A DNA stretch of 64,000 bases, taken from assembly GCF_003574445.1 (NCBI RefSeq), contig NZ_KZ984564.1, forward strand, positions 124,001-188,000, read 5' to 3'. This stretch comes from Streptomyces sp. YIM 130001. GTDB lineage: Bacteria; Actinomycetota; Actinomycetes; Streptomycetales; Streptomycetaceae. Under the pieces are notes generated by a model. That model did not search any database. It was not told the origin of the DNA and saw only the letters and a list, made by a program, of their open reading frames with translations. A program made the position numbers and the translations under genes. How positions within the stretch are numbered: the stretch's first letter is position 1; each line of letters begins with the position of its first letter. Below are positions 1,941 through 6,399 of the stretch, piece by piece.

Positions 1941-2540
1941 TCAGGTCTTGGGCTCGGCCTTCGCGGCCTTGGCCGCGGCCTTCGCCTCCTGCTTGTACGC
2001 GCGGACCTTGGCCAGGGTCTCCGGGCCCGTGATGTCGGCCGCCGAGCGGAACGAGTCCTTCTCGCCGTACGCGCCGGCCGCCTCGCGCCAGCCCGTGGGG
2101 CGTACGCCGTACTGCTTGCCGAGCAGGGCGAGGAAGATGCGGGCCTTCTGGTCGCCGTAGCCGGGCAGGGCCTTGAGGCGGGCGAGCAGTTCCTTGCCGG
2201 ACTTCACGTCGCGCCAGACGGCCTCCGGGTCGCCGTCGTACTCGTCGACGAGGTACTGGCAGAGCTGCTGGACGCGGCCGGCCATCGAGCCCGGGTAGCG
2301 GTGGACGGCGGGCTTCTCGGAGAGCAGCGCCGAGAACGCCTCGGGGTCGTACGCGGCGATCTCGTGGGCGTCGAGGTCGTCGTGCCCGAGGCGCTGGGCG
2401 ATGGTGTGCGGGCCGGCGAACGCCCACTCCATGGGGACCTGCTGGTCGAGCAGCATGCCGGTGAGGGCGGCGAGGGGGCTTCGGCCCAGGAGGGTGTCGG
2501 CGTCCGGGTTCTGGGAGATGTGGATGGTTGCCTTCTTCAT
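1941..2540 (-). CDS. HhH-GPD-type base-excision repair protein
   Basis: 199 aa. The ATG at 2540 gives MKKATIHIS as the N-terminus, and a GATCGAGG ribosome site lies just upstream. QQVPMEWAF at 33-41 and LPGYGDQKA at 125-133 match the helix-hairpin-helix signature of HhH-GPD DNA glycosylases of the actinobacterial short type. The predicted role is recognition and excision of damaged bases from DNA in the cytoplasm. It lacks the C-terminal iron-sulfur cysteine loop of EndoIII/MutY. The substrate cannot be told from sequence. It lies 128 bp upstream of the M28 gene on the same strand and is probably a separate unit. Confidence 0.82.
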   Translation of the reverse strand: MKKATIHISQNPDADTLLGRSPLAALTGMLLDQQVPMEWAFAGPHTIAQRLGHDDLDAHEIAAYDPEAFSALLSEKPAVHRYPGSMAGRVQQLCQYLVDEYDGDPEAVWRDVKSGKELLARLKALPGYGDQKARIFLALLGKQYGVRPTGWREAAGAYGEKDSFRSAADITGPETLAKVRAYKQEAKAAAKAAKAEPKT

Positions 2541-2663
2541 GCCTCGATCATGGCGGAATCGTGGCGGGCGCGCCTGGTCGTGGCGGGGGCGCCTTTGGGG
2601 GGTTTGGGCGGGCGTGGCTCCGGCCGGGGCGAGTGCGCGACAGGTCGTGCGGGCGTTCTTTGT

Positions 2664-2743
2664 CCTCAATCGCCGGACGGGCTCTGGAGATGGACGGGCT
2701 CTGGAGATGGGCGGGCTGTGGAGGCGGGCGGGCTCTGGAGGCC
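2664..2743. repeat. Four 17-bp tandem repeats next to a dispersed Streptomyces motif
   Basis: Four tandem 17-mers run from 2676 to 2743. Copies 1 and 2 are identical (GACGGGCTCTGGAGATG); copies 3 and 4 diverge. The first copy overlaps CTCAATCGCCGGACGGGCT (from 2665), a short sequence I recall as recurring in Streptomyces intergenic DNA. The surrounding gap (2541-2844) holds no credible gene. The repeats lie upstream of the MFS gene and may be noncoding expansion only. Confidence 0.6.
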
Positions 2744-2844
2744 GGTTCCTTGAGGGCGCGTGCCGGCAGAGGGGAGAAGTGGCCCAAGAGGCAGTGCGGG
2801 TATTGGCCCAGAATTCAGGGCCAGTGGCGGGCTAGCGTCGAGGG

Positions 2845-4095
2845 ATGGCGCAGTGGACGAGAGCGGTGCTGCCGCCGGTCGGGGTGCAACGGGGCCTGGC
2901 CTGGGCGCAATTGAGCAATTCGGTGGGGGACGGGGCGTATTACGTCACGTCGGCTCTGTACTTCACGCATGTGGTCGGGCTCGCGCCCGCGCGGATCGGG
3001 CTCGGGCTGACCGTGGCGTGGGGGATCGGGTCGGTCGTGGGGGTGCCGCTCGGGCGTCTGGCCGATCGGCGTGGACCGCGCGGGGTGGCGGTGCTGCTGG
3101 CGCTCGCGACCTGTGTCGCGGTGGCGTCGTTCCTGGTCGTACGGGACTTCGTGCCGTTCCTGGTCGCCGCCTGTCTGTACGCGAGTGCTCAGTCGGGGCT
3201 CGCCGCGGCCCGACAGGCGCTGCTGGCAGGACTTGTGCCCGAGCGGGAGCGGACGGCGGCGCTCGCGCATCTCCAGTCGACGCTGAACGCCGGGCTGGCG
3301 ATCGGTGCCGCGCTCGGCGGGCTCGCGCTGCATGCCGGGACCGAGGCGGCTTACCTGGCGGTGTTCGCCCTGGATGCGCTGAGTTTCGCCGGATGCGCGC
3401 TGGTGCTGCGCCGGCTGCCCGAGGTCGTGCCGGTGGGGGAAGAGCCGCGGGGCGCCGGGCGTGCCGTGCTGCGGGACCGGCCGTACGCGGTGGTGACGTT
3501 GATCAACACCGTGCTGCTGCTGCGGATGCCGCTGCTCAGCGTCGGCCTGCCGCTCTGGATCACGGAACGCACCAGCGCACCTGAGTGGCTGGTGTCGGCG
3601 CTGTTCATCCTCAACACCGGCGCGGTGATGCTGTTCCAGGTGCGTACGGCCCAGGTCGTCAGCGGGCTGCCGAGTGCCGGCCGTGCGCTGCGACGGTCCG
3701 GCGTGATCATGCTGGTGACCTGCGGGATCTTCGCGTTCTCCGGGGCCGGTGGGCCGTGGGCGGCGGGCGCGTTCCTGGTGGCCGGGTCCGTCACGCTCGT
3801 GGTCGGCGAGATGCTGCACTCGGCGGGGTCGTGGCAGATCGGCTTCGACCTGGCGCCGGCCGGCCGCATCGGGGAGTACCAGGGGTTCTTCGGTACGGGC
3901 GTCACCGTAGCCCGCACCGCCGGACCGCTCCTGCTGACCACTTTGCTGGTCGGACTCGGCACCGCGGGCTGGCTTCTGCTCGGCGGCCTCTTCCTGTCGG
4001 CCGCGTGTGCGATGGGACCGGCGGCGCGGTGGGCCGCGGGACGGCGCACAGTGCCTGCCTATACGCCGAGTACGGCCTTCGCGGTGAGGAAGTAG
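2845..4095 (+). CDS. MFS transporter
   Basis: 416 aa with about twelve hydrophobic segments and no signal peptide. The N-terminal half has GLGLTVAWGIGSVVGVPLGRLADRRGPR, where GRLADRRGPR is the MFS loop 2-3 signature, so it is an inner-membrane secondary carrier. The layout (QLSNSVGDGAYYVTSALYF at the N-terminus) resembles drug/metabolite efflux MFS proteins of the actinobacterial type. The substrate is unknown. The ATG at 2845 follows a weak purine stretch (GTCGAGGG). Its 3' end overlaps the convergent mgtE gene by 37 bp, so both transcripts are complementary there. Confidence 0.85.
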   Translation: MAQWTRAVLPPVGVQRGLAWAQLSNSVGDGAYYVTSALYFTHVVGLAPARIGLGLTVAWGIGSVVGVPLGRLADRRGPRGVAVLLALATCVAVASFLVVRDFVPFLVAACLYASAQSGLAAARQALLAGLVPERERTAALAHLQSTLNAGLAIGAALGGLALHAGTEAAYLAVFALDALSFAGCALVLRRLPEVVPVGEEPRGAGRAVLRDRPYAVVTLINTVLLLRMPLLSVGLPLWITERTSAPEWLVSALFILNTGAVMLFQVRTAQVVSGLPSAGRALRRSGVIMLVTCGIFAFSGAGGPWAAGAFLVAGSVTLVVGEMLHSAGSWQIGFDLAPAGRIGEYQGFFGTGVTVARTAGPLLLTTLLVGLGTAGWLLLGGLFLSAACAMGPAARWAAGRRTVPAYTPSTAFAVRK

Positions 4096-5498
4096 ATGAT
4101 CAGGCCCGTGGCGTCGACCAGGGTGGTGACCATCGGGGCCGAGACCACGGCCGGGTCGATGCGCAGGCGTTTGGCGAGCAGCGGCATCGTGCCGCCGATG
4201 GTGGCCGCCCAGGCGCAGATCAGTACGAGGGTGATGGCGACGACCAACGCCACCAGCACGTCCGCGAACAGCGTGCCCACCACCAGACCGAGCAGCGCGA
4301 GCAGCGAACCGAGCACCAGGCCGACCCGCGACTCGCGCCAGATCACCTTGAACAGGTCCGAGCCGCGCACCTCGCCGACCGCGAGTGCGCGCACGCAGGC
4401 GGTGGCGGCCTGGGCGCCCGCGTTGCCGCCCGCGCCGATCAGCATGGGGATGAACATGGCCAGCACGGCTCGCTGCTCGAGGGTGGCCTCGAACAGCTGC
4501 GTCACCGAGACCGTCATGGTCGCGGCGACCAGGAGCAGGCTCAGCCACAGCGCGCGGTAGCGGGCCAGCCGCCAGACGCCGGTCGCCATGTAGTGCCCGG
4601 ACCAGGGGCTCGCTCCCGACTGGCGGGCCATGTCCTCGGTGTCGGCCGCCTCGATGACCTCGACCGCGTCGTCGATGGTGAGCAGGCCGACGAGGCGCCG
4701 CTCGCTGTCGACGACCGGCAGGTTCAGGTCGTTGGTCTCCCGCATCAGGCGGGAGGCCTGCTCCGCGGGGTCGCCCGCGTACGCGAAGGCCGGTTCGGTG
4801 ACGACGAGGTCGCAGACCATCGCCTCAGGGGCGCTGAGCACCAGCTCACGCAGTTCCACGATGCCGGTCAGGCGGCGGCCGTGGTCGACCACGGGGAGCG
4901 TGTACACCGTCTCGGCCTGCGGCCCTTTGCTGCGTACGGTCTCCAGTGCCTGCTGCACCGTCAGATCCTGTCCGAGTGCGACGACTTCGGGCGTCATGTA
5001 GCGGCCGACGGAACCCTCTGGGTAGCCGAGCAGCGCGGACGTCATACGGCGTTCGTGGACGCTGAGCCCGGCCAGGACCCGCCCCGCGACCTTCGCCGGT
5101 GCCTCGCGGAGCATCCGGGCGCGGTCGTCCGGCGCCATCGACTCGACGAGCTCGCGGAACGAGTGGTCGCGCAGCCCCTCCAGGATCTGCTGCTGGTCGA
5201 CCGGCTCCAGCTCCTCGAACACGGTGAGCGCGCGGTCCTTGTCGAGCAGCCGGAAGGCGACACCGGCGTCGACGGCGTCCATCCGGGCGAGCTCGTCCGC
5301 GATCAGGTGCGGCGGGTTGGTCTCCAGCCATTCGAGCGCGGCGTGCAGCTGCTGGTTCTCGACCAAGTCCTTGAGGGACTGCGGCTGTTCGGTCTGCATG
5401 TCGGTGGCCCCCGGCGGTCGTACGTCGTCGTGGCGGCTGACCTCGGGGTCAGGCAGTTCCAGGGTCTTCGGGCTCTCCTGGTGGCGGGTCTGCGGCAT
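4059..5498 (-). CDS. mgtE: Magnesium channel/transporter MgtE
   Basis: 479 aa. The ATG at 5498 is chosen because GAGGA lies 6-7 nt upstream. Domain order is an N-terminal helical MgtE_N domain (about 40-150), two CBS repeats (about 160-290, with GYPEGSVGRYMTPE and LLTIDDAVEVIEAAD), and a C-terminal block of five membrane helices from about 315. Conserved pore residues lie in IPMLIGAGGNAGAQA. MgtE is a dimeric plasma-membrane Mg channel closed by Mg binding to its cytosolic domains. The gene is preceded by an unusually long leader that contains a short peptide ORF, and its 3' end overlaps the MFS gene. Confidence 0.93.
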   Translation of the reverse strand: MPQTRHQESPKTLELPDPEVSRHDDVRPPGATDMQTEQPQSLKDLVENQQLHAALEWLETNPPHLIADELARMDAVDAGVAFRLLDKDRALTVFEELEPVDQQQILEGLRDHSFRELVESMAPDDRARMLREAPAKVAGRVLAGLSVHERRMTSALLGYPEGSVGRYMTPEVVALGQDLTVQQALETVRSKGPQAETVYTLPVVDHGRRLTGIVELRELVLSAPEAMVCDLVVTEPAFAYAGDPAEQASRLMRETNDLNLPVVDSERRLVGLLTIDDAVEVIEAADTEDMARQSGASPWSGHYMATGVWRLARYRALWLSLLLVAATMTVSVTQLFEATLEQRAVLAMFIPMLIGAGGNAGAQAATACVRALAVGEVRGSDLFKVIWRESRVGLVLGSLLALLGLVVGTLFADVLVALVVAITLVLICAWAATIGGTMPLLAKRLRIDPAVVSAPMVTTLVDATGLIIYFLTAKAVLGV

Positions 5499-5939
5499 GA
5501 GTTGTCCTCGGTGCGGCCGCGGGGTGGCGCGGCTCGGTGAACGGGCTGTCGGGGACACGTCGCGGACATCGCCCGCCGTTGCCGTTCCGGTTCCGCTCCC
5601 GGCCCGGCTGGGCGCTCGGGTCGGGAGGGGGCAATTCGGCTGTCACGGGCGGGAGTTGCTCCGGTCGGACCTGGTCGCACGCGGGCCCCTGCCGGGGAAG
5701 GCCGGGCGAGGGCGATCCCGGTGAAGGGGCAGGGCGTCCCTGTTCGGGGGATTCCGGTCAGGGTGTCCGGGTCAGGAGCGGAGGGCTCGGGCCGCGTGCC
5801 GCCGCGGGAGGGCTGCGGTGCCGCGAGGTGCTCGTCGACTGGGAGGCTCGCCACGCATCGCGACCACCTCCGTCCCTCGCATCGCCGTCTCGGTCGCTCG
5901 CGCCGCCCGGTTGCCGGGCGCGCGCCGTCTGTGAGGGTA
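5499..5939 (-). promoter_or_regulatory. Long 5' leader of mgtE with possible -10 element
   Basis: About 430 nt separate mgtE from a TACCCT sequence (TAnnnT type, 5934-5939 on the minus strand). The leader contains a strong GC-rich hairpin near 5900-5920 and a 28-codon peptide ORF with a good ribosome site. The GGAGG of that site can pair with CCTCC inside the peptide ORF. I could not fit the M-box (ykoK) core to it. Leader status is inference; the promoter -35 is weak. Confidence 0.45.
5772..5858 (-). CDS. Candidate Mg-responsive leader peptide of mgtE
   Basis: 28 codons, reading MRGEPPSRRAPRG then TAALPRRHAARALRS. GGAGG is placed exactly 8 nt before the ATG, better than for many genes here. 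The peptide has four prolines and eight arginines, with an EPP motif at residues 4-6. The known leader peptide MgtL of enterobacterial mgtA is also short and Pro/Arg-rich with an acidic-proline start, and ribosomes stall or destabilise on it when Mg is low. The stop lies 273 nt before mgtE on the same strand. Random GC-rich DNA also yields Pro/Arg ORFs, so function is inference. Confidence 0.45.
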   Translation of the reverse strand: MRGEPPSRRAPRGTAALPRRHAARALRS

Positions 5940-5975
5940 CCGCGCTCCGGTGAACGCGCCCACCGGACACCCGAA

Positions 5976-6008
5976 GGCCCGCCCCAGCCGTGTGGCGTGG
6001 GGCGGGCC
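5976..6008 (-). terminator. Terminator after DUF4287 gene
   Basis: A perfect 11-bp inverted repeat, GGCCCGCCCCA / TGGGGCGGGCC, with an 11-nt loop. It begins 10 bp past the DUF4287 stop and separates that gene from the mgtE leader. Confidence 0.75.
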
Positions 6009-6017
6009 GGCGCCGGA

Positions 6018-6239
6018 CTACTTGGTGCGGGACTCCGCAAGGGTGTGGGCGACGACTGCGTTGGCGTGTCCGTGGCCGAGTCCGTGCTCCGCCCTGAGCC
6101 AGGCGACGAGCCCCATGTGCTTGGTCAGCGGGGAGGTGCGGATCTGCTCCTGCCAGTCGGCGACCGGGCGGCCGTACTTCTTCTCGATGGCCGGGAAGTA
6201 GCTCGCGGGTCCCCTGGGTGTGGCGGTGGCTTCGGTCAT
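6018..6239 (-). CDS. DUF4287 domain small protein
   Basis: 73 aa. The ATG at 6239 follows GAGGGGAG. The sequence contains YFPAIEKKYGRPVADWQEQI and HMGLVAWLRAEHGLGHGHANAV, the conserved pattern of DUF4287 proteins. It is soluble, has no signal peptide and its biochemical role is unknown. It is a single gene, followed by the hairpin at 5976-6008. An array of 9-bp repeats lies immediately upstream (6323-6399), between this gene and the ABC ATPase terminator, so the array could lie in its promoter region. Confidence 0.75.
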   Translation of the reverse strand: MTEATATPRGPASYFPAIEKKYGRPVADWQEQIRTSPLTKHMGLVAWLRAEHGLGHGHANAVVAHTLAESRTK

Positions 6240-6322
6240 GGCGGCGGTGGGCTCCCCTCGGCCGTGTCCGGCCGCGTCGTGGTCCGTTGTACTCAAGACC
6301 TTTGATCGGGCCCGTAGTTGTG

Positions 6323-6399
6323 GGTGCTGTCGGTGCTGTCGGTGCTGTCGGTGCTGTCGGTGCTGTCGGTGCTGTCGGTGCTGTCGGTGCTGTCGGTGC
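6323..6399. repeat. Minisatellite: eight perfect 9-bp repeats
   Basis: GGTGCTGTC is repeated eight times without a mismatch from 6323 to 6394, followed by a partial GGTGC. The array is noncoding by position and lies 84 bp upstream of the DUF4287 start. Perfect identity implies recent expansion by slippage. A reading frame through it would give repeating tripeptides, which I do not regard as a gene. Confidence 0.95.

Follow-up and report, generated by a model that had tools for sequence, protein, structure and literature searches.

A short upstream reading frame with a conserved Glu-Pro-Pro-Ser core precedes genes of unrelated Mg2+-transport families in Actinomycetes

In Actinomycetes, a short upstream open reading frame (uORF) with an early Glu-Pro-Pro-Ser (EPPS) core stands before genes of the MgtE, CorA and CNNM/CorC types. 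We consider it rather probable that this uORF is translated and that its product, a leader peptide acting in cis, serves Mg2+ homeostasis in the manner of enterobacterial MgtL. The occurrence of one conserved core before unrelated Mg2+-transport families suggests that actinobacteria possess a ribosome-based Mg2+ sensor of their own. The analysis followed up an initial annotation of the window, a stretch of 64,000 nucleotides from Streptomyces sp. YIM 130001, which had proposed an MgtL-like peptide ahead of a Mg2+ channel gene. A uORF at this place was corroborated, as it is conserved, in frame, and found before genes of unrelated families.

Results

The mgtE leader of the window

The uORF lies on the minus strand at 5772..5858 of the window, with its ATG at 5858 and its TGA ending at 5772. 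It consists of 28 codons (MRGEPPSRRAPRGTAALPRRHAARALRS), among them four for Pro and eight for Arg, and its core and frame are conserved. The Shine-Dalgarno (SD) sequence GGAGG (5867..5871, minus strand) precedes the ATG by exactly 8 nt. Codons 4-7, GAG CCT CCC AGT (5838..5849, minus strand), form the Glu-Pro-Pro-Ser core that is conserved across sites. The stop codon is 273 nt away from the start codon (ATG, 5498) of the Mg2+ channel gene. For these features, reading frame, SD spacing, residue counts and intergenic distance, the initial annotation proved accurate. The downstream gene (4059..5498, minus strand; SD GAGGA at 5505..5509, minus strand) encodes an MgtE-type protein of 479 aa with the Pfam domains MgtE_N, two CBS and MgtE (PF03448, PF00571, PF01769). 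A promoter-like -10 element, TACCCT, which matches by consensus only, is located 81 nt 5' of the uORF ATG (5934..5939, minus strand); it makes the previously claimed leader length of about 430 nt plausible. The remainder of the leader (5510..5771, minus strand) is C-rich, with 45% C and 30% G at 5499-5771, and by its composition may be a candidate Rho loading region. A consensus scan for intrinsic terminators gave no hit at 5300-6300.

The upstream neighbour of uORF and mgtE on the minus strand is a gene for a DUF4287 protein. Right after this gene, a perfect 11-bp GC-rich inverted repeat (5976-6008) occurs without a T run behind it. It is perhaps the terminator of the DUF4287 gene, in which case that gene would be separate from the mgtE transcript. 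Upstream of the DUF4287 gene, a 9-nt unit is repeated nine times in tandem (6319-6399; 98% matches).

Conservation and spread of the core

For a set of 150 Streptomyces genomes, which included the window's own, mgtE orthologs with at least 60% identity were found in 16 genomes. Upstream of 12 of these orthologs (L001-L012), a GGAGGTG-like site is followed by a spacer and the sequence ATG-NNN-[AG]G[CT]-GA[AGC]-CCT-CC[CT]-AGT; the core uORF is absent upstream of the other four (L013-L016). The conservation in related genomes that the initial annotation had suggested checking thus exists, and frame-breaking indels in relatives, which it had named as contrary evidence, were looked for and did not turn up. 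What is kept across relatives is the core [S/G]-E-P-P-S and not the richness in Arg and Pro. Because the tail codons 8-28 are conserved neither in sequence nor in length, the idea that arginines and tail prolines constitute the signal had to be given up.

The core pattern ATGNNNRGYGAVCCTCCYAGT gave 28 matches in 392 Streptomyces genomes, versus none for the reversed pattern. The next gene is mgtE after 18 and corA after eight of these matches; one of the 28 (L045) has no SD and was read as a chance match. At another locus (L046), an IS110-family transposase gene (Pfam; 1671-2858, opposite strand) directly follows the uORF, in the place where corA is expected. In the window's own genome, the mgtE site was the sole match of the pattern searches.

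In 246 genomes of the class, a covariance model (R1) yielded 20 strong matches (E 2.3e-8 or better), which together with L079 and L081 make up 22 sites at which the uORF occurs together with a gene of the MgtE or CorA type. At E 0.1, weaker matches were obtained in 142 of the 246 genomes; 30 loci were examined, and among them L080 and L082-L088 have neither the uORF core nor a transporter gene and look like chance matches. A pattern scan of contigs identified at least 118 stretches. The titles of 80 among the stretches listed name Streptomyces (31), Nocardia (35), Jiangella (2), Nocardiopsis, Klenkia, Terrabacter, Humibacillus and Cellulomonas (one each), five Actinomycete MAGs and two Acidobacteria MAGs. 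In the Nocardia species, some of which cause human disease, the leader stands before mgtE. When both sources were joined, the pattern was present in 132 of the 148 loci among the matches listed (L059-L206). Note that some sites recur among the loci; the window's own site, for example, is L001, L044 and L073. The 16 loci without the pattern comprise eight chance matches and eight variants with uORF and transporter gene (L063, L064, L070-L072, L076, L078, L079). In the phylum sample, no convincing EPPS site was found outside the class: At E 5e-4, matches in five genomes (L306-L310) had no uORF or transporter gene in any case, and neither was present at a second match in G416 (L311).

MgtE and CorA genes downstream of the leader

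Among the matches listed, the gene following the 132 core-pattern loci is of the MgtE type in 91 and of the CorA type in 34 cases. Five further loci are too short to tell, and two loci from Acidobacteria MAGs have neither gene; the sites in these MAGs look like chance. Of the 125 MgtE/CorA matches listed, 117 have E values below 1e-100, and seven of the other eight are on short loci. The eighth, a weak match, comes from a Mycolicibacterium MAG (L123). Its leader peptide is MTGEPPSTANR, and the protein of 450 aa translated from 2317-3666 is an MgtE_N-CBS protein without the MgtE channel domain.

A scan unbiased by the pattern covered the regions upstream of 70 CorA homologs (the best 30, the next 32 by score and eight lower-ranked ones picked by hand) and of the best 29 MgtE homologs. 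The EPPS leader was found ahead of 18 of the 70 CorA and three of the 29 MgtE genes, once as EPPG (L231). Most of the regions scanned, 47 of 70 for CorA and 26 of 29 for MgtE, contain neither an EPPS nor a QPPS form. Nine Streptomyces CorA orthologs with identities of 72-75% (L208-L212, L215, L216, L219, L220) have no such leader, and several of these leaderless genes are closely preceded by a promoter element resembling TATNCCT. An ORF with a GTG start and the residues EPDPP, 313 nt upstream of corA at L236, was read as chance. Upstream of a further corA gene (L274 in G408), a different uORF with a strong SD, MSPGHSPRLSWAGSATPAA, takes the place of the EPPS leader.

Two families depart from the EPPS form. 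In family f17, five corA genes have the leader M[S/G]QPPST[R/N/P/G], which is one codon shorter and has Gln for Glu. A pattern search of f17 in 100 genomes gave seven sites, all seven with CAA and all before CorA; five of them are those already seen in the CorA scan. Since Gln replaces Glu in f17, the acidic residue is not always needed. An early acidic residue next to proline, as in MgtL, is thus kept in the EPPS form but not universally. In family f19, five MgtE genes (L243, L247, L249, L251, L252) are preceded by a different conserved uORF, M-R-x-R-S-..-D-x-[E/D]-P-x-H-S, which carries an acidic-proline motif (D-x-E/D-P). An M-box (RF00380) was found in three of the five f19 loci (L243, L249, L251) in a scan of 20 loci, and a relationship of the f19 uORF with the M-box uORF of mycobacteria is possible.

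MGEPPS leaders before CNNM/CorC-type genes

A pattern that does not contain a start codon, AGGTGN{6,30}RGYGANCCTCCYAGT, was applied to 126 Streptomyces genomes. It gave 71 sites in 69 of these genomes and a single site for the reversed control. Eleven sites are of the known kind, three are of another kind, and 57 are new and lie outside the earlier patterns; their sequence ATG GGC GA[G/C] CCT CC[C/T] AGT encodes MGEPPS or MGDPPS. Fourteen of the 57 loci were opened, and in all 14 the TGA of the uORF overlaps the ATG of a gene for a protein of 441-459 aa (ATGA), the SD of this gene being inside the uORF. These uORFs (L338, L339, L341-L343, L345-L348, L350, L352-L354, L356) end with ...DHG[T/A][E/G]V..R. 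The one protein that was searched, from L343, has CNNM, CBS and CorC_HlyC domains. Its NCBIfam matches, among them CorC and PaeA, are all below the cut-offs, so that transport of Mg2+ or of polyamines is possible. According to an excerpt of PMC12421838, the CorC proteins of Salmonella are induced by excess Mg2+ and give protection from it.

At the three odd sites (G035, G047, G080), the uORF begins with GTG and encodes VLYG[E/D]PPS; uORFs of this form were recorded at L337, at L340 and at a third site in G047. The gene following the uORF in G035 (L337) encodes an ABC or binding-protein-dependent transport permease (PF00528) and may be another target of the leader.

Reading frame, stop codons and codon usage

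In the searches that did not require a start codon, all upstream sites (26 of 26) and all model sites (22 of 22) turned out to have a start that precedes the Pro codons by 9, 12 or 15 nt. The same holds relative to CCTCC for all 71 rows of the start-codon-free search, with 57, 11 and 3 starts at 9, 12 and 15 nt; these distances were read from the listing, and 20 loci were opened. At L063 and L078, GTG is found in place of ATG. At L076, the ATG is lost and a GTG one codon upstream is present instead. Furthermore, a CCC in codon 5 (L064, L070-L072) keeps the Pro residue and loses one base pair of the hairpin described below. At 121 of 125 sites, the true frame reaches a stop no more than 21 codons after PPS, compared with 20 and 12 sites in the other two frames; these 125 sequences are related to each other, were selected by a pattern in which CCT and AGT are fixed, and include two chance rows (L045, L202). 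Judged from the sequences, frame conservation, stop bias and the ATGA overlap argue for translation of the uORF.

Codon choice within the core was analysed in 246 genomes with a pattern that allowed NAN at codon 4, any third position in the Pro codons and AGY for Ser. It gave 18 sites (reversed control: 3). Codon 4 is GAA or GAG in all 18, codon 5 reads CCT at 14 sites and CCC at four, and the Ser codon is AGT in all 18. In 21 long ORFs of the window, CCT accounts for 3.7% of the Pro codons and AGT for 3.8% of the Ser codons. There is hence a constraint at the nucleotide level (CCU/CCC, AGU), and RNA may account for part of the peptide conservation.

RNA structure of the leader

In the window, a hairpin (H1; 5837..5874, minus strand) is predicted to form between GAC-GGAGGU and GCCUCC..GUC, with an inner stem GUCGCG/CGUGGC and the AUG in the loop; the SD of the uORF is the 5' outer arm. 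The local fold of 43 nt has a free energy of -20 kcal/mol (z -1.8), a value matched by 11 of 200 shuffles. When longer stretches are folded, the SD pairs with other parts of the uORF, namely with CACCUC of codons 10-12 (421 nt) or with CCUCCG of codons 25-27 (121 nt), and a second helix across the uORF stop (H2) is not seen. The window leader is not more stable than its shuffles.

Across relatives, the picture is mixed. In a set of 22 different sequences, selected with ATG and CCTCC fixed in the search pattern, 91.2% of the H1 cells pair. Double changes occur in 14 cells compared with 5.1 in shuffles and are all in the inner stem, while the outer stem shows no two-sided changes. The number of H1 pairs with double changes is reached by 53 of 500 shuffles and is thus not clearly above them. 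With 48 sequences, the inner stem has 26 double-change cells compared with 10.3, with 67.9% of the cells paired, and its pair count is reached by 216 of 500 shuffles. An unconstrained consensus fold contains only four outer pairs, none of them compensatory. The proposal that the CCTCC within the uORF can occlude its own SD is upheld as far as pairing capacity goes, and the inner part of H1 covaries, but the SD:CCUCC part itself is too invariant to test.

In 69 leaders (every second of 138 rows, with a few duplicates), the mean z-score of H1 is -3.1, and 74% of the values are below -2. A helix H2 of at least eight pairs, counted without a shuffled control, is predicted in 58 of these 69 leaders, and the variable GC-rich tail is part of it; the mean z-score of the 85-nt region is -1.6. 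Consensus folds for four groups, likewise without control, comprise 35-45 pairs for H1 and H2 together, of which 7 to 12 show two-sided changes. H1 is unsupported in the three CNNM leaders that were folded (z -0.2, 0.8 and 0.3), although the core is still present there. No Rfam match was obtained for the window leader or for 17 other loci with EPPS leaders.

Promoter element and C-rich stretch

Of 120 leaders, 71 contain the element TANC[CT]T at a distance of 30-110 nt ahead of the uORF, compared with one of 120 control stretches taken further upstream. As a -10-like element is often found at this place, the mRNA probably has the uORF as its first reading frame. In leader-bearing genes, C is frequent and G scarce in the 31 nt that end 15 nt ahead of the transporter start. 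For CorA, the median difference C-G is 0.31 with and 0.08 without leader (26 and 26 genes, p 3e-6), and for MgtE it is 0.19 with and -0.08 without leader (69 and 18 genes, p 3e-10); the starts were chosen by rule, and the p values ignore relatedness. As a feature of composition, this bias would fit a Rho loading region without proving it.

A switch of transporter-SD access by ribosome position was considered and dropped, as modelled access, a simple test of RBS sequestration, gave no clear switch. With no ribosome, with an early pause and with termination, mean access was 0.21, 0.23 and 0.21 for CorA (33 leaders) and 0.19, 0.29 and 0.25 for MgtE (89 leaders).

Discussion

Proposed mechanism

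By its sequence, the EPPS leader appears to have the parts for an MgtL-like device. We infer the following course, which covers the response to Mg2+, the sign of this response and the output step. The critical place would be the early Glu-Pro-Pro, where slow Pro codons (CCU/CCC) are read while the tunnel contains hardly any nascent chain. With enough Mg2+, ribosomes would pass this place and complete the peptide, and the importers MgtE and CorA would stay off. At low Mg2+, ribosomes would destabilise or pause at Glu-Pro-Pro, which would turn the importers on. Their output step would most likely be a (possibly Rho-dependent) termination of transcription in the C-rich stretch behind the uORF; occlusion of the transporter RBS would be less likely. 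At the CNNM loci, the completed peptide would, with enough Mg2+, feed translation of the CNNM gene by coupling, and at low Mg2+ the CNNM protein would go down. Coupling of the leader to the CNNM genes thus implies an opposite sign for these genes and the importers.

A wider reading can be offered more tentatively, and we regard it as somewhat less probable than its negation: Actinomycetes may have evolved a nascent-peptide Mg2+ sensor independently, with an early Glu/Gln-Pro-Pro-Ser alone as the signal. The same module would attenuate MgtE and CorA genes and drive CNNM/CorC-type genes by stop-start overlap, and the Gln form would be a case of destabilisation without an acid.

Alternative explanations

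GC-rich leaders hold many short ORFs rich in Arg and Pro, and the uORF could be one of them. This has a negligible probability, as the comparative data, with a core conserved across genera and gene families, already refute it. A different function of a translated uORF deserves more attention. Pro-Pro with its slow CCU/CCC codons could sense polyproline synthesis or the rate of translation in general and report prolyl-tRNA, the state of EF-P or translation capacity, with Mg2+ entering only indirectly. The Glu and Gln versions indeed have Pro-Pro-Ser in common, both CCT and AGT are rarely used codons, an ABC permease gene stands behind one of the three odd sites, and slow diproline synthesis at CCC/CCU is reported in an excerpt of PMC8129111. 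However, nearly all identified downstream genes belong to Mg2+-transport families and not to proline or EF-P genes, and codon 4 encodes Glu in 18 of 18 sites where NAN was allowed. We therefore judge a sensor of this kind to be unlikely.

The element might also act as RNA only, the start hairpin being a switch that responds to Mg2+, temperature or a protein; the peptide sequence would then be irrelevant and Pro-Pro a mere by-product of CCUCC. The preference for CCU/CCC and AGU over common codons even where the choice is free, the covariation of the H1 inner stem and the mean H1 z-score of -3.1 in the 69 leaders favour this explanation. It leaves unexplained that start-to-Pro distances are multiples of three in searches asking for no start codon, that some starts are GTG and one is displaced by a codon, that a CCC at codon 5 retains Pro at the cost of a pair, and that stops are biased to the true frame. 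Moreover, the outer stem is devoid of two-sided changes, the unconstrained consensus retains four outer pairs only, and the core persists in the CNNM leaders with H1 unsupported in the three folded. It is accordingly quite improbable. A direct Mg2+ riboswitch similar to the M-box, with the uORF as a bystander, would have a precedent in the three of five f19 mgtE loci that combine an M-box leader with another uORF, but the window leader and the 17 other EPPS-leader loci match no Rfam family, which makes this very unlikely. A leader peptide that is translated and responds to Mg2+ remains the preferred reading.

Significance

To our knowledge, sensing of Mg2+ by a nascent peptide has been described in enterobacteria only. 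If our reading is true, the use of one short peptide ahead of MgtE, CorA and CNNM/CorC-type genes would be a convergent case in a distant phylum, and importers and CNNM genes would be expected to respond to Mg2+ in opposite directions. Its two versions, with Glu or with Gln, would then constitute a natural experiment on ribosome destabilisation.

Comparison with known systems

No description of an EPPS leader peptide was found in open-licence PMC text. A peptide of the RAPP type was considered and rejected: The window peptide contains no RAPP and precedes mgtE, and RAPP-type peptides (PMC10951233) have an Arg-Ala-Pro-Pro motif and a protein-localisation gene downstream.

Within Actinomycetes, the M-box uORF leaders of mycobacteria and of family f19 come closest, as they also combine mgtE-type genes with a conserved small uORF. 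For the mycobacterial M-box leader, an excerpt of PMC12810186 mentions the conserved small uORF and reports Rho in M. tuberculosis; for M. abscessus, PMC4974804 describes a uORF before mgtE, with an M-box, as another peptide. In contrast to these leaders, with their RF00380 aptamer and different peptide, the EPPS leaders have no M-box match.

MgtQ, an 8-aa ORF before mgtB of Salmonella, is likewise tiny and has a strong SD, destabilising acidic codons and an overlap with a stem-loop. However, it is intergenic, and its acidic codons act on an RBS hairpin and free the mgtB RBS (excerpt of PMC8092293), an output that the modelled SD access does not support here. CorL of E. coli and Salmonella is a uORF before corA, and PMC11552253 reports that corL/corA is controlled through Rho, similar to MgtL. 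According to the same paper, its conserved N-terminal region has a single proline; unlike CorL, the peptide core described here serves both corA and mgtE.

The closest parallel in mechanism would be MgtL of E. coli and Salmonella; for E. coli, an excerpt of PMC11282234 states that translation at sufficient Mg2+ exposes a Rho-dependent terminator of mgtA and that ribosomes drop off at EPDP at low Mg2+. In both systems, the leader of a gene for Mg2+ transport contains a short uORF with an SD, and the peptide has early acidic residue(s) with prolines; for both, faltering of ribosomes at low Mg2+ is proposed and a Rho output is possible. They differ in the phylum, in the genes (MgtE, CorA and CNNM here, the P-type ATPase MgtA there) and in the motif, which is Glu-Pro-Pro-Ser at codons 4-7 (or 3-6), with a Gln version, instead of EPDP at codons 2-5. 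The different genes and the different phylum suggest that the two leaders arose by convergence.
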